Made by a program: the position numbers and the translations under genes
Notes under the pieces: generated by a model
The model's database searches: none
What the model was told of the DNA's origin: nothing
Seen by the model: the letters and a program-made list of their open reading frames with translations, nothing else
Source of the DNA: Bacteroidia bacterium
GTDB lineage: Bacteria > Bacteroidota > Bacteroidia > UKL13-3
Direction: 5' to 3'
NCBI GenBank assembly: GCA_020049855.1
Contig: JAGVLJ010000029.1
Location: 1-35,367 of the forward strand
DNA length: 35,367 nt
Shown: piece after piece, positions 176 to 23,426 of the stretch
How the letters are laid out: every line of letters begins with the position of its first letter
Position numbering within the stretch: position 1 is the stretch's first letter

Positions 176-586
176 CTACCAAATGTAAACTTTTTTATTC
201 ATCAGCAACGCTTCACCAGTAATGGTATCAGATCCTGTGGCTACATCAATCACTTTAGTTTCGTAAAGCACACGGTTTTTTTCAGGAAATATTTCTTTCA
301 CAGTAATCACCGCACGGTAAGGCGTATCCACAAACATGGGTTTTAAGAAGGTGGTATTTTGTTTCATGTAGATATGCCCGTCAGCATGAAGTAGGGTGCC
401 GAATATTTTGGTGAATACACTTGCGCTGTAGTGGCCATGAATAATGCAACGGCCAAACATGCTCGCTTTTCCAATTTCCTGATTTACGTGAAGCGGGTTG
501 GTATCTCCCGAAATTTGTGCATAAAGGTCAACCTGAGTTTGGGTGTAGGAAAAATCATGTGTAAAAATATCTCCGACTTTAATCAT
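176..586 (-). CDS. phaJ: MaoC-like (R)-specific enoyl-CoA hydratase, PhaJ type
   Basis: The 136-residue single hot-dog-fold protein has the length of Aeromonas caviae PhaJ. The hydratase motif is present: S-G-D-T-N-P-L-H at residues 26-33 gives Asp28 and His33, spaced like the catalytic Asp31/His36 of PhaJ, followed by a G-R-C-I-I-H-G segment. PhaJ enzymes hydrate trans-2-enoyl-CoA from beta-oxidation to (R)-3-hydroxyacyl-CoA, the monomer for PHA synthase. The gene is divergent from phaE, with 316 bp between them, which supports this role. Cytoplasmic; no signal peptide. It could be another MaoC-family dehydratase, so the symbol rests on context plus motif. Confidence 0.78.
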   Translation of the reverse strand: MIKVGDIFTHDFSYTQTQVDLYAQISGDTNPLHVNQEIGKASMFGRCIIHGHYSASVFTKIFGTLLHADGHIYMKQNTTFLKPMFVDTPYRAVITVKEIFPEKNRVLYETKVIDVATGSDTITGEALLMNKKVYIW

Positions 587-902
587 AACGATAGTGCTTT
601 GGGTTATTAAATGGTTTAAAAAATGAATTTTGAACGTATGCGAAGGTAATTTATTTTGGATGGGTTAATTCAATTTTACGCAGAATTTTAATTCAGGTTA
701 CAAATAAAAAACGGACCAATGACGAAGATCATAGATAAATAATAGGAGATAATTAACTGGTATTATGCGACATATATACTATACAGTTAAATACCTCGTA
801 CATATGATGTAAATATATAAAATGTGTTTACCTTTGCGCCCGAATTCAGGTGCTGTTTTAATGTAAAATAAAAAAACCGTAATTCATCAAAAACGCAAAA
901 AA
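587..902. other. Divergent intergenic region between phaJ-like gene and phaE
   Basis: These 316 bp hold no convincing gene. I see a promoter element for phaE (829-836) and a weaker one for the PhaJ-like gene on the reverse strand (TACCTTCG reading 648 to 641, one mismatch to TAnnTTTG). The rest is AT-rich, without clear repeats or RNA structure. Confidence 0.6.
807..836 (+). promoter_or_regulatory. Bacteroidota-type promoter for phaE
   Basis: TACCTTTG at 829-836 matches the -7 consensus TAnnTTTG exactly. Nineteen nt upstream is ATG (807-809), one mismatch from the -33 TTG core. Transcription would start near 841, giving a leader of about 60 nt before the ATG at 903, which follows an A-rich stretch. 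Confidence 0.55.
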
Positions 903-2252
903 ATGGAAACAACAACAGGGAACACTGTAAAAAACGTGTTCGAAACCTGGGCCGAGGCTCAGAAAAAAGCAATGGATTCTTTTACTGAAAGTACTGAAAA
1001 GTTTCAAAAAGAAATCCTGAACAACAACAAAACCGGTGAAGCAGCCGATTACTTTAAGAAATGGTATGATTCTCAAATGTCGTTTTTCTACAACAACGAA
1101 AACAAAAATTCATCAAATCAGATGGATTGGTTTAATCACTGGATGAATAATCAAGCTGAAATGGGTAAAAAAATGAATGAAATGACTCAGGAGTGGATGA
1201 AAAGCCTGAATAACCCTGCAACCATGATTAACTCGATTCCGGGAATGCCGGACGAAACCAGAAGAAATATGGAGCAGGCAATGAATACCTATACGACTTG
1301 GATAAATTCAATGACTTCGGCCTACAATGATATGACCAAGAACTTTGGCAACCCGAATACAAAAGACTACTTCAGCAGTATGTTTAACAATACCGACAGT
1401 TACATGAAAATGTTCCAGCTTTGGATGCCGGTTATGAAAGCACTAAGCGATAAGACATACACTCCTGAACAGTTCGGACAATTATTCAACACGGTACTTT
1501 ATAAGGACATGATGGATAAAATGTTTGGCTTTGCTCCTGACTATATGAAAAGCATGTTCTCCAATCTTAATACTTCGTATCAGGAGAATATGAATAAAAT
1601 GATGGATATGAACAAAGGGTACTATGATACAATGAAAAATAACCTGCATAGCAGCCTACCTTCATTTATTCAGGATCCGTTTAATTCATACCTCAATGCT
1701 TACCAGAATATGTTTAATCATCTGCAAAATGCGTCAAACCCTTTTGCTAAGATGATGACTCATGGCTTTGGGAAGGAGCAATTAGAGAAGATTTCAGAAC
1801 TTAGTAAGCAGTTTAATATTTTTCAGGTACGTAATTCACAAATGCAATATCTGGTGTACACGACCGGAATGAAGGCCATGGAAACGCTTTCGCAGAACCT
1901 TTACAATAAAATGAAGAATGGCGAAGAAACCAAAAGTTTCATGCAGTTGTATTCAGAAATGCTGAACACAATGGATAAAGCATACGTAGAGCTGTTTGAA
2001 ACAGAAGAATATTCCAAAATGCAGGCAGAACTGAGTTCGGTTGGCCTTCGAATGAAGAAAGATATCGAAGATCAAATGGAAAAAATGTTTGCCAATGTTC
2101 CATTGGTACCCCGTTCCGAGATGGATGAATTGTACAAAACAATTCACGACCTGAAATCACGTATTCGTTTGCTGGAAAAACAAATTGACGGTGATTTTGA
2201 AGTTGAGGTTAAAGAACCAAAAGCTGCATCAAAAAAATCAAAGAACGTATAA
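903..2252 (+). CDS. phaE: Class III poly(R)-hydroxyalkanoic acid synthase, subunit PhaE
   Basis: The protein has 449 residues, is rich in Met, Asn, Lys and aromatic residues, mostly helical in appearance, and has no signal peptide. It ends with the PhaE signature: a V-P-R-S-E-M-D-E-L segment at about 401-409 running into a coiled coil (about 403-429, with K-S-R-I-R-L-L-E-K), then a Lys-rich tail. PhaE is non-catalytic and forms the active synthase with PhaC at the surface of PHA granules. It is longer than the roughly 360-residue PhaE of Allochromatium; the N-terminal helical part resembles phasins. phaC follows 105 bp downstream with a terminator-like hairpin in the gap. Confidence 0.85.
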   Translation: METTTGNTVKNVFETWAEAQKKAMDSFTESTEKFQKEILNNNKTGEAADYFKKWYDSQMSFFYNNENKNSSNQMDWFNHWMNNQAEMGKKMNEMTQEWMKSLNNPATMINSIPGMPDETRRNMEQAMNTYTTWINSMTSAYNDMTKNFGNPNTKDYFSSMFNNTDSYMKMFQLWMPVMKALSDKTYTPEQFGQLFNTVLYKDMMDKMFGFAPDYMKSMFSNLNTSYQENMNKMMDMNKGYYDTMKNNLHSSLPSFIQDPFNSYLNAYQNMFNHLQNASNPFAKMMTHGFGKEQLEKISELSKQFNIFQVRNSQMQYLVYTTGMKAMETLSQNLYNKMKNGEETKSFMQLYSEMLNTMDKAYVELFETEEYSKMQAELSSVGLRMKKDIEDQMEKMFANVPLVPRSEMDELYKTIHDLKSRIRLLEKQIDGDFEVEVKEPKAASKKSKNV

Positions 2253-2277
2253 GTTGAATTAATAGGTTAATAGTGAG

Positions 2278-2316
2278 CAGCCGCAGATTCCTTTTGAGTT
2301 TGTGGCTGTTTTTTTT
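2278..2316 (+). terminator. Terminator/attenuator-like hairpin between phaE and phaC
   Basis: CAGCCGCA (2278-2285) pairs with TGTGGCTG (2301-2308, one G-U pair) and is followed at once by eight T residues (2309-2316). This is the form of an intrinsic terminator, but it sits inside the phaE-phaC unit, 41 nt before phaC. It probably reduces rather than stops readthrough. Confidence 0.65.
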
Positions 2317-2357
2317 CAAACTTCATTAAATTCGTTTCAATTAATCAAACTTAAAGT

Positions 2358-3410
2358 ATGAATGTAAATGTAAAAGAAGTAATGACTGAGTTTACCAAAG
2401 CCAGCGAAAAACTGATAAAAGGGTATGAAACATTACAACGTATAAAAGATATTGAAGTGGCTACAACCCCAAAAACTTTGGTATGGCAGCGCGACCATGT
2501 GAAAGTGTATCATTACAACCGCGAAACACCGGCTAAGTGCAAAATTCCGTGTTTGGTTTCATTTGCCATGATTAATCGTCAGGATGTACTGGATATTCAA
2601 CCTGACCGTAGTTTAATGAAAAAGCTGCTTGATGAGGGATTAGATGTGTATATTATTGACTGGGGGTATCCGGGTAAACAAGATCGTTACCTTACCATGG
2701 AAGATTATATTTTGGGGTATTTAGACGATGCGGTGGATTATGTCCGTAAAGCGAATAAAGCACCAAAAATTAATATGCTTGCCATTTGTCAGGGTGGTAC
2801 ATTCAGTATGATTTATGCCTCACTTAAACCTGAAAAATTCAATACACTTACTACTTTCGTTGCTCCATTTGATTTTAAAGGGAACGAATGCATGTTGTAT
2901 CGCTGGACAAAAGACATTGATGTAGATACTATGGTTGATAGTATTGGTACAATTCCCGGAACAATGCTGGATCAGGGTTTCGGTTTCCTTAAGCCAAGTA
3001 TGAATATCTCTAAATACCTTGGGATAATGGATTCATTGGAAGATGAAGAAAAATTACTTTCTTTTTTGCGAATGGAAAAATGGAAAGCCGATCTTCCAAA
3101 TATTGCCGGTGAAATGTTTCGTAAATACATCAAAGATCTGTTTAGAGACAATAAACTTATAAAAGGCGAAATGGAACTGGGAGGTCAAAAGGTTGATTTA
3201 ACTAATATGACTGTACCTTACCTCAACGTGTACGCTACCGAGGACAATATAATTCCTAATACGTCTACTTTACCCATAATGGATAAAATTGGGTCAAAAG
3301 ACAAAACAGCATATCCGTTTAAGGGAGGGCATATAGGCGTGTTTGTAGGGTCTAAATCACAAAAGGAATTAGGCCCTGCAGTTGCCAAATGGATAACTGA
3401 GAGATCATAA
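2358..3410 (+). CDS. phaC: Class III PHA synthase, catalytic subunit PhaC
   Basis: This 350-residue alpha/beta-hydrolase-fold protein has the length of class III PhaC (about 355). It polymerises (R)-3-hydroxyacyl-CoA into PHA with release of CoA. The catalytic triad can be placed at Cys144 (in L-A-I-C-Q-G-G), Asp296 (Y-A-T-E-D-N-I-I-P) and His325 (K-G-G-H-I-G). The spacings of 152 and 29 residues nearly match Cys149/Asp302/His331 of the Allochromatium enzyme. The D-W-G-Y-P segment near 101-105 is also typical. One oddity: the first glycine of the G-x-C-x-G-G box is Ala142. It needs PhaE, encoded upstream. No phaA, phaB or phaR lies nearby. Confidence 0.92.
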   Translation: MNVNVKEVMTEFTKASEKLIKGYETLQRIKDIEVATTPKTLVWQRDHVKVYHYNRETPAKCKIPCLVSFAMINRQDVLDIQPDRSLMKKLLDEGLDVYIIDWGYPGKQDRYLTMEDYILGYLDDAVDYVRKANKAPKINMLAICQGGTFSMIYASLKPEKFNTLTTFVAPFDFKGNECMLYRWTKDIDVDTMVDSIGTIPGTMLDQGFGFLKPSMNISKYLGIMDSLEDEEKLLSFLRMEKWKADLPNIAGEMFRKYIKDLFRDNKLIKGEMELGGQKVDLTNMTVPYLNVYATEDNIIPNTSTLPIMDKIGSKDKTAYPFKGGHIGVFVGSKSQKELGPAVAKWITERS

Positions 3411-15897: not shown

Positions 15898-16863
15898 TCA
15901 ATCCTGGTTCGGGTGATCTTTTTCAAGTTTGTCGTATGCTTTAATAATATCTTTCACAAGTCGATGCCTTACCACATCCTCAAAGCTAAGGTAAGCAATT
16001 TTAATTCCTGTCACATGTTCTAAAATTTTAATGGCTTTTGTTAATCCTGACTGTCCTTTTCTGGGCAAATCAATTTGGGTTAAATCACCTGTAATAATAA
16101 ACTTGGCATTTGGCCCCATACGAGTAAGAAACATCTTCAGTTGTAAATCGGTAGCATTTTGTGCCTCATCTAAAATAACAAATGCATTATCCAAAGTACG
16201 GCCGCGCATAAAAGCCATCGGAGCAATTTCAATTATACGGTTTTCCATATAATACTTCAGCTTTTCAGCCGGAATCATATCCTCCAATGCATCATAAAGT
16301 GGTCGGAGGTAAGGGTCTATTTTTTCTTTTAAATCGCCAGGAAGAAATCCGAGGTTTTCACCTGCTTCTACAGCTGGTCTTGCTAAAATAATGCGTTTAA
16401 TTTCTTTGTCTTTTAGTGCCCTAACTGCTAAAGCAACTGCTGTGTAGGTTTTACCTGTTCCAGCCGGACCAATGGCAAAAACAATATCATTCCCTTCCAC
16501 ATAGTCTCGCATCTTGCGCTGATTTGGTGTACGGGCTTTCACTATTTTCCCATTGGGGCCAAACACCAATACATCATTATCAGCAGTAAGTTCATTCCCA
16601 TTGAGAATATCCTCTCCCTTTACCAGTTCTTCAAGATAATTGGCGTGTAGTTTTCCGAATTTACGGATATGGTCAATCATCTGGTCGAGTTTGTGCTCAA
16701 AATGATTTATTTCCTGATCATCACCTAAAATAGTGAGTTCCTGCCCGCGTGAAACAATTTTCAATTTGGAAAATTGAGTTTGCAGAAGTTTCAGGTTCTG
16801 GTTGTTGACGCCAAGTAACTCCATCGGATCAACATCTTCTATTAAATAGCTTTTTTCGCTCAA
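15898..16863 (-). CDS. PhoH family ATPase
   Basis: The 321-residue protein has an N-terminal region typical of the PhoH/YbeZ branch and a RecA-like ATPase core with Walker A G-P-A-G-T-G-K-T at 132-139 and Walker B F-V-I-L-D-E-A-Q-N-A around 228-237, followed by T-R-M-G and I-T-G-D-L-T-Q-I-D-L-P. YbeZ-type proteins act in ribosome and rRNA maturation, usually with the endonuclease YbeY; no ybeY is adjacent here. Its transcript would start at the reverse element 16905-16898 and run on into purC. Confidence 0.9.
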   Translation of the reverse strand: MSEKSYLIEDVDPMELLGVNNQNLKLLQTQFSKLKIVSRGQELTILGDDQEINHFEHKLDQMIDHIRKFGKLHANYLEELVKGEDILNGNELTADNDVLVFGPNGKIVKARTPNQRKMRDYVEGNDIVFAIGPAGTGKTYTAVALAVRALKDKEIKRIILARPAVEAGENLGFLPGDLKEKIDPYLRPLYDALEDMIPAEKLKYYMENRIIEIAPMAFMRGRTLDNAFVILDEAQNATDLQLKMFLTRMGPNAKFIITGDLTQIDLPRKGQSGLTKAIKILEHVTGIKIAYLSFEDVVRHRLVKDIIKAYDKLEKDHPNQD

Positions 16864-16883
16864 AATTGTGTGTGTTATTCTTC

Positions 16884-16891
16884 TATTTTTG
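16884..16891 (+). promoter_or_regulatory. -7 promoter element for the SAM hydroxide adenosyltransferase gene
   Basis: TATTTTTG matches TAnnTTTG exactly and lies 30 nt before GTG 16922. It is only 6 nt from the opposing element for phoH, so polymerase cannot occupy both at once. Confidence 0.5.
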
Positions 16892-16897
16892 TGTCGT

Positions 16898-16905
16898 CAA
16901 AGTTA
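16898..16905 (-). promoter_or_regulatory. -7 promoter element for phoH
   Basis: On the reverse strand 16905 to 16898 reads TAACTTTG, an exact TAnnTTTG match, 34 nt before the phoH start at 16863. It faces and overlaps the forward promoter at 16884-16891; its -33 region would lie in the first codons of the neighbouring gene. Confidence 0.5.
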
Positions 16906-16921
16906 GTAAAAAAATATATCC

Positions 16922-17698
16922 GTGCCCGTAATAACGCTTACCACCGATTTTGGAAGTGAAAGTTTCTATGTAGCAGCTATTAAAGGCAGTTTGCATCGGT
17001 TGATTCCGAATGTGCATATTGTTGACTTAAGCAATCAAATTGCCCCTTTTGACGTAGCACAGGCTGCATTTCTTATTCGAAATTCTTATCCCAGTTTTCC
17101 GGCCAAAACTATTCACCTTATTGGAATTGATATGGACGTGAATATTTACGGACAATATCTGGCTGTTGAAAAAGATGGTCAGTTTTTTATTGGAGCAGAT
17201 AATGGCATTTTCGCGCTTGTTTTTGATCAGGAACCTGAGAAGGTGTACCGGATAACGCATTTTTTTGAGAGCAAAACAGATGCATTTTCGGGTAAAAATG
17301 TATTTGCCAATGCAGCGGCCATGCTTAGTCAAAACTGGGATATTAATGCAATAGGAGAGCCTGCACGAATTAAAAATTTTAAAGAAAATTTTCAACCCAT
17401 GGTAGATGCCAACAGCATCAGAGGGCATGTGGTACATATTGATCATTTCAAAAATGTTTTAACCAATATTAGCGAGCAACTCTTTACTAAAATTGCACGC
17501 GGGCGTAGATTTAGCATTCGGTTCAGGCGCACCGAAGAACTTGATCGCATTAGCTCTGATTACAGTGATGTGGAACCCGGTGAGCGGTTATGTATTTTTG
17601 GTGAAACTGGCTTTTTGGAGATTGCAATCAACAGAGGTGAGGCGGCTCAATTACTTGGGTTAAGAACCGGTTCTGTTATAATCATTGAATTTTTATGA
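16922..17698 (+). CDS. SAM hydroxide adenosyltransferase (DUF62 family)
   Basis: The 258-residue protein starts at GTG 16922 and opens with I-T-L-T-T-D-F-G-S, the family hallmark. It also has G-I-D-M-D-V, F-I-G-A-D-N-G-I-F and a conserved Asp/His set (V-V-H-I-D-H-F-K-N-V-L-T-N-I). The family (related to fluorinase) cleaves S-adenosylmethionine with hydroxide to adenosine and methionine; the cellular purpose is unclear. It overlaps the next gene by ATGA (17695-17698), implying coupled translation. Confidence 0.88.
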   Translation: MPVITLTTDFGSESFYVAAIKGSLHRLIPNVHIVDLSNQIAPFDVAQAAFLIRNSYPSFPAKTIHLIGIDMDVNIYGQYLAVEKDGQFFIGADNGIFALVFDQEPEKVYRITHFFESKTDAFSGKNVFANAAAMLSQNWDINAIGEPARIKNFKENFQPMVDANSIRGHVVHIDHFKNVLTNISEQLFTKIARGRRFSIRFRRTEELDRISSDYSDVEPGERLCIFGETGFLEIAINRGEAAQLLGLRTGSVIIIEFL

Positions 17699-17988
17699 TC
17701 ATTCGAATTGTACGCATGACTTTTATTCCCAGTGAGGTAGATCCTTTTTTGCAACTTTTTCATACAACCAAACAGCAAATTCGCCATTTCGAAGGTTGCA
17801 AACGTTTGGAATTATTGAAAGATGTAAACCAACCAACTGTTTTTTTTACCTATAGTTGGTGGGATAGCGAAGAACACTTGAATAAGTATCGATTTTCTGA
17901 TTTATTTAAAAATATCTGGAGTCAAACAAAAATAAAATTTAGCGACAAACCACAGGCTTGGAGTTTAGTAAATGAAACTATTGTCTGA
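17695..17988 (+). CDS. Small ABM-fold (antibiotic biosynthesis monooxygenase-like) protein
   Basis: The 97-residue protein has the dimeric ferredoxin-like ABM pattern: an N-terminal strand I-I-R-I-V-R-M-T-F, a helix, F-E-G-C-K-R-L-E-L-L as second strand, then F-F-T-Y-S-W-W-D-S-E-E-H-L-N-K-Y-R and a C-terminal W-S-L-V. The W-x-S/D-x-E-x-L-x-x-Y segment is typical of ABM proteins, many of which are quinol monooxygenases or have no known activity. It starts inside the stop of the SAM hydroxide adenosyltransferase gene (ATGA). Confidence 0.75.
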   Translation: MIIRIVRMTFIPSEVDPFLQLFHTTKQQIRHFEGCKRLELLKDVNQPTVFFTYSWWDSEEHLNKYRFSDLFKNIWSQTKIKFSDKPQAWSLVNETIV

Positions 17989-18064
17989 TTTTGCCTGTTC
18001 ACTTATCTGAACAAAGCCACCTTATTGTTGATGAATAGGTAGCTTACCGAACGACCCATTGCGG

Positions 18065-18072
18065 TAACTTTG
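18065..18072 (+). promoter_or_regulatory. -7 promoter element for the LysM/RlpA-like gene
   Basis: TAACTTTG is an exact TAnnTTTG match ending 4 nt before ATG 18077. If transcription starts at the usual 5 or so nt downstream, the mRNA would begin at the start codon itself. Confidence 0.5.
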
Positions 18073-18076
18073 AGCT

Positions 18077-18985
18077 ATGAAAAAGTGTATTCACATAATG
18101 TTTTTACTAATAACACCTATGACGTTTAGCGCACAATTGGTGTGTGCACAAGATTCTGTAGGCACAAAAAAGATAAACGGACAGGTTCTTATTCAATATA
18201 AAGTTGGGAAAGGGGAAGGATTAAATGCCATTTGCCGAAAATACAATGTAAAAAAAGAAGAGGTGCTTACTGCCAATCCGGGAATGAAAGAAACACTAAA
18301 TATAGGGCAAATTATTTTGATACCAACACGTGCTTCCTTACAGCCGCCCCCTCAGAAAGTCCATTCAACCCCCACTTTGGTCAACGAAACACATGCTGAA
18401 GCCAATGCAGATAAACATACTGAACAACCTCCCACTGATACTAGAAAAAGACCCGACTCATACACAGTAAAAGCAGGAGAAACTTTGTATAAAATATGTA
18501 CGTTGTTTGATTTAGATGAAGCTGAAGTGAAGAAATGGAACAATATGACTGATGACAACCTTAAGGAAGGGCAGGTTCTTCGGCTTAAACAAGTTAATAC
18601 CCCATCGCTTCCACCACCGGTTTTACCTGCTAAAAAAGACTCAGTGAAAAATCCTGTAGCTAATCAATCATCAGCCGAACCACACCCTATGGCCACCTCA
18701 ATAAATATAACGGAACGTGAAGAAAACGGAATGGCTCGCTGGTTTCTTGACGATGAAATGAGTGGAGGAAAATTACTGGCCATTCATAAAACCGCTCCGA
18801 TAGGAACTATTATTAAAATTACGAATAAACTAAATGGGAAGTCGGTTTTTGTGCGTGTGGTGGGTACCCTGCCTGACACAGATGTGAATAAAAATATTCT
18901 GATAAAGATAAGCCGTACTACAGCCGAAAAAATAGGAATGCGCGATGAGTTGACTCAGGTAAAATTAAATTATTCACTCGAATAA
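18077..18985 (+). CDS. Secreted protein with two LysM domains and an RlpA-like double-psi beta-barrel
   Basis: The 302-residue protein has a signal peptide (M-K-K-C, hydrophobic core, cleavage near A-Q at 24-25), LysM 1 at about 40-84 (Y-K-V-G-K-G-E-G-L-N to I-P-T), a Pro/Thr-rich linker, LysM 2 at about 128-171 (Y-T-V-K-A-G-E-T-L-Y-K-I), another Pro-rich linker, and a C-terminal domain (about 210-300) with G-M-A-R-W-F-L-D-D, A-P-I-G-T-I-I-K-I-T-N and S-V-F-V-R-V-V-G-T-L-P-D-T-D. The last part matches RlpA-like barrels that bind or cleave peptidoglycan. Periplasmic cell-wall role. A downstream ATG at 18098 is a possible start but would lose the basic n-region. Confidence 0.85.
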   Translation: MKKCIHIMFLLITPMTFSAQLVCAQDSVGTKKINGQVLIQYKVGKGEGLNAICRKYNVKKEEVLTANPGMKETLNIGQIILIPTRASLQPPPQKVHSTPTLVNETHAEANADKHTEQPPTDTRKRPDSYTVKAGETLYKICTLFDLDEAEVKKWNNMTDDNLKEGQVLRLKQVNTPSLPPPVLPAKKDSVKNPVANQSSAEPHPMATSINITEREENGMARWFLDDEMSGGKLLAIHKTAPIGTIIKITNKLNGKSVFVRVVGTLPDTDVNKNILIKISRTTAEKIGMRDELTQVKLNYSLE

Positions 18986-19036
18986 AAATCCGTTCCCATT
19001 AAGTTTATATTCGCATACATACTGTTTTTTTTGTTT

Positions 19037-19522
19037 ATGCGATTTAGTTACCTCTTAATTATCTTCAACTTTGTTTTTATGTCCTGCTCATCAGATCAGC
19101 CTAAAACTTGGGAGCAAATTAAATTGGCCGGCTTTGCTTATCCGTCCGATTCCATAGTGAGCGATAGTTTAACCGCTTCTGTAAAAGAAAAAAGATTGAT
19201 AAATGCGGCCTATAAAAATTATGCTTATCGCAAGCATTGTCCGAACCTTATTATCGCAGAGGTAAACCTGAATGATTCGTTTGTAGCTTCCATTTATCAG
19301 GAAGACCAACTGCTTCTATCCAAATTGCTCACTTACCATTTAAAACAATACGGGATAACTCATTTCACCGGGCAATCGCTTTCGGACACTTCACTTTTTT
19401 TATTTTTTTATACTGAAAAACTGAATAACCCAAATGGCATCATGCAGTCATTTTACATACCGTGTAAAAGTACTTTTAAACAAGATCCAGACTGGGTTTT
19501 TTACCAAAAACAAAACAGGTAA
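19037..19522 (+). CDS. Small lipoprotein of unknown function
   Basis: From ATG 19037 the product has 161 residues; a TTG at 19031 in the same frame is less likely. A hydrophobic leader ends in V-F-M-S-C, giving Cys17 as lipidation site, followed by S-S-D-Q-P-K. The mature domain is mixed alpha/beta with no motif I can name. It lies 51 nt after the LysM/RlpA-like gene on the same strand and may share its transcript. The dnaE remnant begins about 10 nt after its stop. Confidence 0.62.
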   Translation: MRFSYLLIIFNFVFMSCSSDQPKTWEQIKLAGFAYPSDSIVSDSLTASVKEKRLINAAYKNYAYRKHCPNLIIAEVNLNDSFVASIYQEDQLLLSKLLTYHLKQYGITHFTGQSLSDTSLFLFFYTEKLNNPNGIMQSFYIPCKSTFKQDPDWVFYQKQNR

Positions 19523-19531
19523 AAGCGGTAG

Positions 19532-20262
19532 TTTAGGCTACTAAATTGCCATAGCCTACTATATTTAAGATATGGCATCATTGTTCCTGAAAACTTATTG
19601 AAAATGGCCAAAGAAAATGGATATGATAAGCGATATCAATAATACTTCTGCTTGCTTAAACACGCTGCGTATTGCCGAAAAATTAGGCATAAAAGTAGTG
19701 CCGGTTATTGACTTTAGAAATGGGGTTAAACAGCAGTATATTGGTAGTATATGGTAGCTACATTGAGTAATGGCTGAGGTTTTTATCGCACCTAAGTATA
19801 TTCGTATATGGAGCCGTTATTAAACCCCCTTGTGTAAACCACAGCACACCTAAATTTGAACTTAATGGAAAACAAATTTTCATTAACCTCAACTTAACAT
19901 CCGGATTGGAGCACAACATTGTTTACGAAATATTGAACGTCAGCAATCGTGACGGGGTATTTAAAAGTCTCCCTGATTTTATGGAGTGCGTTCCCATTTC
20001 ATTAGATCAACTCCGGCCTCTTGTTGTTTTTAATTATTTTGATGATTCACGCTCTGAAGGTTATCGGGTAGGTTGGGAAGTGTTGGCTGTAGCAGCGTGG
20101 ATGATTACCTGATGGGTGCTTGAAACCATTGCCACCACAGCTACGGTTTTATGATGCCCATCTCAACACCACCCAATGCCATTGTGTATTCAACGGGTTA
20201 TATTTGCATGAGGGATATGGTTAAAGTCGGTTTTTGGCTTGATCTATCTGGATTAGTTTTAG
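19532..20262 (+). pseudogene. Remnant of a DNA polymerase III alpha subunit gene (dnaE type)
   Basis: Pieces of a dnaE-type protein can be read in order. From about 19538 comes L-L-N-C-H-S-L-L-Y-L-R-Y-G, then M-A-K-E-N-G-Y-D (from 19604), and after a frameshift D-I-N-N-T-S-A-C-L-N with V-I-D-F-R-N-G-V-K-Q-Q-Y-I-G (19632-19757), which is the start of the PHP domain. Directly afterwards comes G-F-Y-R-T-stop-V-Y (19778-19801), then after another frameshift G-A-V-I-K-P-P-C-V-N-H-S (from 19810) and the helix-hairpin-helix region F-K-S-L-P-D-F-M-E-C-V-P-I-S-L-D-Q-L (up to 20112). The polymerase core is missing. Weaker traces may reach about 20262. It cannot make a working enzyme. Confidence 0.78.
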
Positions 20263-20339
20263 TAAGCTTGTTTACGCTAACATTGTTTGAATAGGTTTTT
20301 TAGAAAAGAATTGTTTAAGATTGTGCCTCTGAATAAATA

Positions 20340-22447: not shown

Positions 22448-22876
22448 TTAATTTTGGTGTACGTAGAACAACTGAGGTGAGGCTGACGAATAACTGAAGG
22501 GAGTAGTTCTTAATATAAGGCGTCCTGCTTCAAGACTAAGATAGGTTACGGTTTTTTCGCGCACGTTCAGGTAGATGCCTTCGGTTATTTTTTGATGATG
22601 AATTAGCAACAGACGGCAAGATTCAAAATAGTCAATAGGTTTAAGCATCAAAAGGTATTCAATGCAGGTGTTAGTGCTGTCAAATTTCCAAATAGCTGTA
22701 TCTGTTGGTTCATCGGCTATTATCAGTATTCCTTCCTCCGAAATATTGATATTGTATGCGACATGCTCTGATTTAAGTTGATGTTCCACTACTGCCATCG
22801 CCTTGCCAATAAAACTTTGAGCTGGTAAGTGGTAGGAGAGCAACAGAAGGAAAAATAAATAAATTAACTTTTTCAT
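22448..22876 (-). CDS. Secreted protein of unknown family, tandem paralog A
   Basis: The 142-residue protein has a signal peptide (M-K-K-L-I-Y, hydrophobic core, cleavage near P-A-Q at 18-20). The mature part is clearly related to the product of the next gene upstream (22983-23426). Shared features in order are V-E-x-x-L-K-S-E-x-x-x-Y-N, a T-D-T-x-x-W-K-F-D-x-x-N-x-C-x-E-Y-x-L block, a Y-F motif, N-x-R-x-x-x-x-T-Y-L-S, and P-F-x-x-S-S-A-x-P near the end. I do not recognise the family. Periplasmic or surface location is expected. Confidence 0.72.
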   Translation of the reverse strand: MKKLIYLFFLLLLSYHLPAQSFIGKAMAVVEHQLKSEHVAYNINISEEGILIIADEPTDTAIWKFDSTNTCIEYLLMLKPIDYFESCRLLLIHHQKITEGIYLNVREKTVTYLSLEAGRLILRTTPFSYSSASPQLFYVHQN

Positions 22877-22934
22877 TGCACCGCAGACTTAAGTTACAAG
22901 ATGTTATTTATTGGCAAATGGTTGTATGTGGATG

Positions 22935-22957
22935 AAAAAAAGGGGCACGCGGCCCCT
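22935..22957 (-). terminator. Intrinsic terminator after paralog B
   Basis: The stem AGGGGC (22941-22946) with GCCCCT (22952-22957) and a 5-nt loop is followed, on the reverse strand, by seven U residues (complement of the A run 22935-22941). It ends transcription of the gene at 22983-23426 and separates it from the paralog downstream. Confidence 0.8.
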
Positions 22958-22982
22958 ATTTTTATTATACGCAAACCCAAAA

Positions 22983-23426
22983 CTATTCTGCTGAAGTCAT
23001 CAATACGGGTGGTGCTGATGAGGAGGCATCAAACGGTTTGGTATTTACTACCAGTGCATTGTCCTGAAAACTAAGGTAGGTAATGGTATTATCCCGCCTG
23101 TTTACATAGGCATTTTTCATTACCATTTGTCCCACCGATTCCAAGTGTTTCTTCAACTGAAAGTAAGATGCTTTGTCAATGGTAAGCGAGTACTCATAAC
23201 AAATATTGTTTGCATCAAATTTCCATACCGAGGTATCTGTTCCTTCTACCAGAACAATGCTACTTCCCTCGGTTAATAAGGTTAAGTTGTACTTGGCTTT
23301 TTCCGATTTCAATTCCCGTTCAACAGTAGCCAATGACTGTCGAAGGAAATCCTGTGCTTTGGCTTTTTCCAGAAAGCCGGTTACCCACATTAATATAAGG
23401 CAGGTAACATGTTTCAATTTTATCAT
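22983..23426 (-). CDS. Secreted protein of unknown family, tandem paralog B
   Basis: The 147-residue protein has a signal peptide of about 24 residues ending in K-A-K-A-Q. Its mature part aligns end to end with the protein at 22448-22876: V-E-R-E-L-K-S-E-K-A-K-Y-N, T-D-T-S-V-W-K-F-D-A-N-N-I-C-Y-E-Y-S-L, N-R-R-D-N-T-I-T-Y-L-S and P-F-D-A-S-S-S-A-P-P. The W-K-F-D-x-x-N-x-C block is the best preserved part. The pair comes from a local duplication, and each gene appears to be its own transcript because a strong terminator lies between them. No known domain recognised. Confidence 0.72.
   Translation of the reverse strand: MIKLKHVTCLILMWVTGFLEKAKAQDFLRQSLATVERELKSEKAKYNLTLLTEGSSIVLVEGTDTSVWKFDANNICYEYSLTIDKASYFQLKKHLESVGQMVMKNAYVNRRDNTITYLSFQDNALVVNTKPFDASSSAPPVLMTSAE

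Follow-up and report, generated by a model that had tools for sequence, protein, structure and literature searches.

A dnaE2B-type polymerase gene and a transporter gene survive as fused remnants in a Bacteroidia genome

What occupies the interval 19523-20339 of this Bacteroidia genome, in which the ORF list holds no open reading frame of at least 90 amino acids with a start codon? The window, i.e. the whole stretch of 35,367 nucleotides analysed here, is contig C24 of genome G000, and we compared it with congeners G001 and G002 and with further relatives; the genomes compared are draft assemblies, that of G000 consisting of 84 contigs. An original prediction made from the sequence alone took the interval for a decayed dnaE-type gene that had lost its catalytic core. 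We find that the gap very probably consists of two pseudogenes, a DnaE2B polymerase gene and a DASS transporter gene, joined at a rearrangement breakpoint. The features of the locus are as follows:

19031..19522, plus strand: lipoprotein-like gene, intact, left anchor (ORF; its syntenic orthologue precedes the intact dnaE in G002)
19535..19745, plus strand: dnaE remnant, codons ~1-75, start of the PHP domain (frame-aware alignment, tblastn)
19745..19751, plus strand: breakpoint left by the internal loss of dnaE codons ~76-706
19748..20060, plus strand: dnaE remnant, codons ~707-813, end of the polymerase region and HHH motif region
20068..20136, plus strand: DASS-transporter remnant, codons ~30-52, with one stop and joined directly to dnaE
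20137..20303, plus strand: DASS-transporter remnant, codons ~420-474, with one stop, after the loss of ~367 internal codons
20340..21104, plus strand: PhnP-like MBL-fold hydrolase gene, intact, right anchor (ORF)

Elsewhere in the window, genes at 176-3410 look by eye like those of a MaoC-type hydratase, a PhaE-like protein and a class III PHA synthase, and two adjacent paralogous small secreted proteins are encoded on the minus strand at 22448-23426, of which G002 conserves both and G001 one.

Exploring the three-frame translation of the window, we found every peptide word that had been quoted from 19532-20262: LNCHS, DINNTSA, DFRNGVKQQYIG, GFYRT followed by TAA, PPCVNHS and FKSLPDF. The translated search proposed at the time bore out the assignment, as tblastn of the intact G002 DnaE against the window returned N-terminal pieces at 19538-19745 (two frames, E=7.9e-23) and C-terminal pieces at 19748-20097 (two frames, E=3.3e-28). 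Frame-aware alignment of the 990-aa G002 protein scored 458, compared with at most 70 (mean 47) in 15 shuffles and with 42 for the reverse complement; 117 of 188 residues are identical, with codons 2-75 aligning at 19538-19745 and the second block, codons 707 to ~813, starting at 19748, and the alignment requires three frameshifts and two stops. The damage begins with the start codon, lost by a change of ATG to AGG at 19535-19537, and continues with a deletion of ~11 nt and a frameshift near 19623 in the N-terminal remnant; the C-terminal remnant carries the stop after GFYRT, a second stop in place of the last residue of NGG and a 13-nt deletion near 19801, and its 3’ limit lies somewhere in 20016-20067. 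About 632 codons (~76-706) are gone, all catalytic aspartates among them, as both motifs, PDFDID (347-352) and KFDIL (481-485), fall inside the deleted stretch, and a search for direct repeats at this deletion found only GG common to both sides. That the core was deleted internally and the rest decayed was thus correctly predicted. Identities at the three codon positions are 0.73/0.87/0.49 for the remnant versus 0.94/0.96/0.63 for PhnP, indicating relaxed constraint on the former. Relocation of the core within G000 was ruled out, since no other match was found in this assembly. We also rejected a decayed second copy of the replicative DnaE1, as the remnant is 62% identical to the short DnaE of G002, to which DnaE1 is only ~33% identical over part of its length. 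In G000 the replicative DnaE1 is encoded by an open frame of 1201 codons on contig C73, in agreement with the prediction of a second, non-replicative dnaE.

The intact counterpart lies in G002, whose contig C41 matches window 15915-19744 at 81%, breaks off and resumes at window 19805-20015, so that ~1970 bases between the matching blocks are missing from the window. This stretch is an intact gene for a 990-aa C-family polymerase located directly after the lipoprotein gene. Its product (P0001) has PHP, alpha NTPase, finger and HHH domains (Pfam PF02811, PF07733, PF17657, PF14579) and keeps the polymerase aspartates of PDFDID and KFDIL, while the PHP metal site, judged from its first motif, is disrupted, reading LNCH where DnaE1 has HLHVH. 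The open frame measures 994 aa versus 1201-1242 for DnaE1 of G000 and G002. The gene is the short second C-family polymerase of Bacteroidota that has been reported as ‘DnaE2B’. An intact copy between the lipoprotein and PhnP-like genes of a close relative was what the prediction proposed to look for; the copy does follow the lipoprotein gene, but phnP adjoins a transporter gene instead.

The same transporter accounts for about 30% of the interval, which had been assigned to dnaE in its entirety. A 474-aa DASS (Na+/anion) symporter can be aligned to window 20068-20303 through its codons ~30-52 and ~420-474, with tblastn E values of 4.6e-20 and 1.4e-6. An intact transporter gene is located directly upstream of the PhnP-like gene in both G001 and G002, and no copy was found elsewhere in G000. 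The congener protein reaches 312.9 bits (TIGR00785 cut-off 198.6). Hence this DASS/SLC13-type sodium-coupled anion symporter is intact in the congeners and is a pseudogene, of which two fragments are left, in the window.

How the two genes came to be fused is suggested by gene order. On G002 contig C41, a DUF3078-like gene (named by eye) is followed by the transporter, phnP and the right-hand genes of the window, while the left-hand genes, the lipoprotein gene, dnaE and its downstream DNA lie much further along, from ~67 kb. G001 also carries the DUF3078-like gene, transporter and phnP in that order, which is therefore probably ancestral. In G000, contig C24 joins the 5’ part of dnaE to the 3’ part of the transporter gene, and on contig C68 the DUF3078-like gene is linked to DNA found downstream of dnaE in G002. 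Between these parts of C68 we detected a transporter-like start (MNKKVLYL) and then 23 codons matching dnaE 963-985 with 61% identity, followed by a 24/24-nt match to post-dnaE DNA and by the G002 dnaE-downstream DNA itself. Each of these pieces is weak singly, and the putative dnaE tail, short as it is (23 codons, E=0.005 alone), becomes convincing only together with order and synteny. Both remnants and both junctions are directly seen in G000, as are the intact genes in the congeners, and the C24 and C68 junctions are the two products expected from one reciprocal exchange. Window ~29.1 kb is another point at which colinearity with G002 is lost, and the congeners are much rearranged in general. 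An IS1595-like transposase gene is located just downstream of the intact G002 dnaE (L023:7317-8231, C41 ~92.3 kb) and has a relative in G001; none was seen at the C68 junction in G000.

We infer from these arrangements that the rearrangement was the inactivating event. As in G002, the ancestor would have had two separate loci, lipoprotein-dnaE and DUF3078 gene-transporter-phnP; a reciprocal rearrangement would then have cut both genes, dnaE close to the 3’ end and the transporter gene close to the 5’ end, and swapped the halves, yielding dnaE-5’/transporter-3’ in the window and transporter-5’/dnaE-3’ on C68, after which internal deletions, frameshifts and stops would have eroded both gene halves. 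A single event breaking both genes is the simplest account of the two deaths; prior decay is possible, and either order of core deletion and rearrangement fits.

A single dnaE pseudogene, produced in place by internal deletion alone and filling the whole interval, is very improbable: the internal deletion is real, but 20068-20303 matches a DASS transporter and the 3’ tail of dnaE sits on C68 beside the transporter start, so that the transporter match already excludes this explanation, short of errors in both C68 and the transporter alignment. The proposed sequence of internal deletion and subsequent decay accordingly stands for the core of the gene and fails for its 3’ end, which was split off by rearrangement. 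An assembly artefact, in which collapsed or chimeric contigs mimic the deletion and fusion of intact genes, draws on the draft state of G000 with its 84 contigs; we consider it slightly less probable still, since misassembly creates no stops, frameshifts, lost start codon or pieces with 62% residue identity, the flanking genes are intact and 66-92% identical, and the two junctions agree with one reciprocal event. Equally implausible is a remnant still in use as a small HHH-domain protein or as a phnP leader RNA, for although a 113-codon open frame spans the HHH part and codon positions are partly coding-like, that frame passes from dnaE into transporter sequence, the interval is devoid of a listed ORF of the above size with a start codon, and the coding-like signal is what the history of the sequence and constraint on the G002 branch would leave.

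Two pseudogenes joined by rearrangement thus remain the preferred reading, and the family of the dead polymerase bears on what was lost. Short DnaE is carried by 34 of 58 genomes, and a Y-family polymerase, PolY2 (P0003), is found in 33 of these carriers and in none of the 24 non-carriers (33/1/0/24; Fisher p=2e-15, ignoring relatedness); in the sole exception, G004, dnaE is at a contig edge. The two genes are neighbours in many genomes, and PolY2 retains the catalytic motifs HIDLD and SIDE. In a tree with DnaE1 and ImuC-type sequences, 14 short DnaE formed one clade (100/100) apart from both, the tree being unrooted with a long stem and compatible with more than one position relative to DnaE2 proper. 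DnaE1 open frames of 1451-1461 codons in G038, G043, G044, G047 and G052 and of 1595 codons in G054 were seen along the way and fit the DnaE1-exonuclease fusions published for Bacteroidetes (PMC3919608).

Bacteroidetes PolY2 with DnaE2 has been described (PMC6511836), a shorter PHP and thumb have been reported for Bacteroidetes DnaE2B (PMC3919608), and a putative DnaE2B-PolY-RecA mutasome has been named in genomes without ImuA/ImuB (PMC12926913), Cellulophaga algicola being the published example (PMC6511836, PMC12926913). The G002 DnaE is likewise short (~990 aa), its PHP motif degraded and its catalytic aspartates intact; short dnaE and PolY2 are unlinked in G002 and neighbours in many relatives, whereas in the window genome the dnaE gene is dead. 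The ImuA-ImuB-DnaE2 cassette similarly connects an accessory C-family polymerase with the SOS response and a Y-family polymerase, but its Y-family partner, ImuB, is catalytically dead while the catalytic residues of PolY2 are intact, and the short Bacteroidota DnaE forms a clade separate from ImuC-type polymerases, which places it outside this cassette. The earlier suggestion of an imuA/dinB association was right in that the partner is of dinB type (PolY2) and probably wrong as to imuA, the DnaE2B-PolY system having been reported without imuA/imuB (PMC12926913). On plasmid pEMTOL01 of Emticicia oligotrophica (NC_018742.1), a 47% identical DnaE adjoins DNA polymerase IV, and an SOS-response peptidase and a divergently oriented HTH+S24 regulator lie close by; unlike the window gene, this dnaE is intact and on a conjugative plasmid.

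CTAA-N5-TTAG is the SOS motif of the non-canonical Bacteroidetes LexA (PMC8565304), and an exact box is present in 8 of 11 family PolY2 upstreams, 0.05 being expected. No box was found with confidence before dnaE itself or in G002, where PolY2 and an HTH+S24 protein of the non-canonical LexA type are divergently oriented. In most promoters the exact box is followed 23 bp later by another SOS-like box with one mismatch (PolY2 upstreams L152, L154, L155, L156, L157, L159 and L160), which suggests tandem operators. Judging by family and regulation, DnaE2B, active PolY2 and the LexA-like S24 repressor most likely form a damage-inducible translesion polymerase, and by analogy with its family and the literature the short DnaE would be error-prone.

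The short DnaE is absent from 9 of 30 family genomes that are at least 90% complete, and its presence varies inside several genera. These nine genomes are smaller than the others (2.65 vs 3.31 Mb, p=0.0013, relatedness ignored), and G005 has a C-terminal DnaE remnant only, beside half an S24 gene. PolY2 and the S24 regulator were not found in the G000 assembly, an absence that may be an assembly gap: contig C5 (C5:1-700) ends where the G002 PolY2-regulator-MFS-trxB block should follow, and the neighbouring trxB and MFS DNA is likewise unmatched in G000, so that several kilobases may be missing and loss of these two genes is uncertain. G000 does carry a UmuD-like and UmuC-like pair on C46, recognized by eye and with weak Y-family similarity. 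That one rearrangement killed the polymerase and the transporter, and that the whole SOS mutasome (PolY2, LexA-like repressor) was then shed with only the UmuDC-like pair kept, is conceivable but doubtful.

The window lineage has lost DnaE2B and keeps the replicative DnaE1 together with the UmuDC-like pair, and its dead dnaE represents ordinary gene decay of an already known system. The DnaE2B-PolY unit was proposed from gene neighbourhoods and modelling, and our literature search found no experimental test of DnaE2B-PolY2 as one unit; the near-perfect joint presence and absence over 58 genomes and the SOS box, evidence that comes from the related genomes, add support for one unit. For the window itself, the two pseudogenes account for 800 bases that would be left empty or misinterpreted in an annotation, and they provide a two-junction example of a Bacteroidota lineage losing its second polymerase, a gene loss that is unusually well documented.
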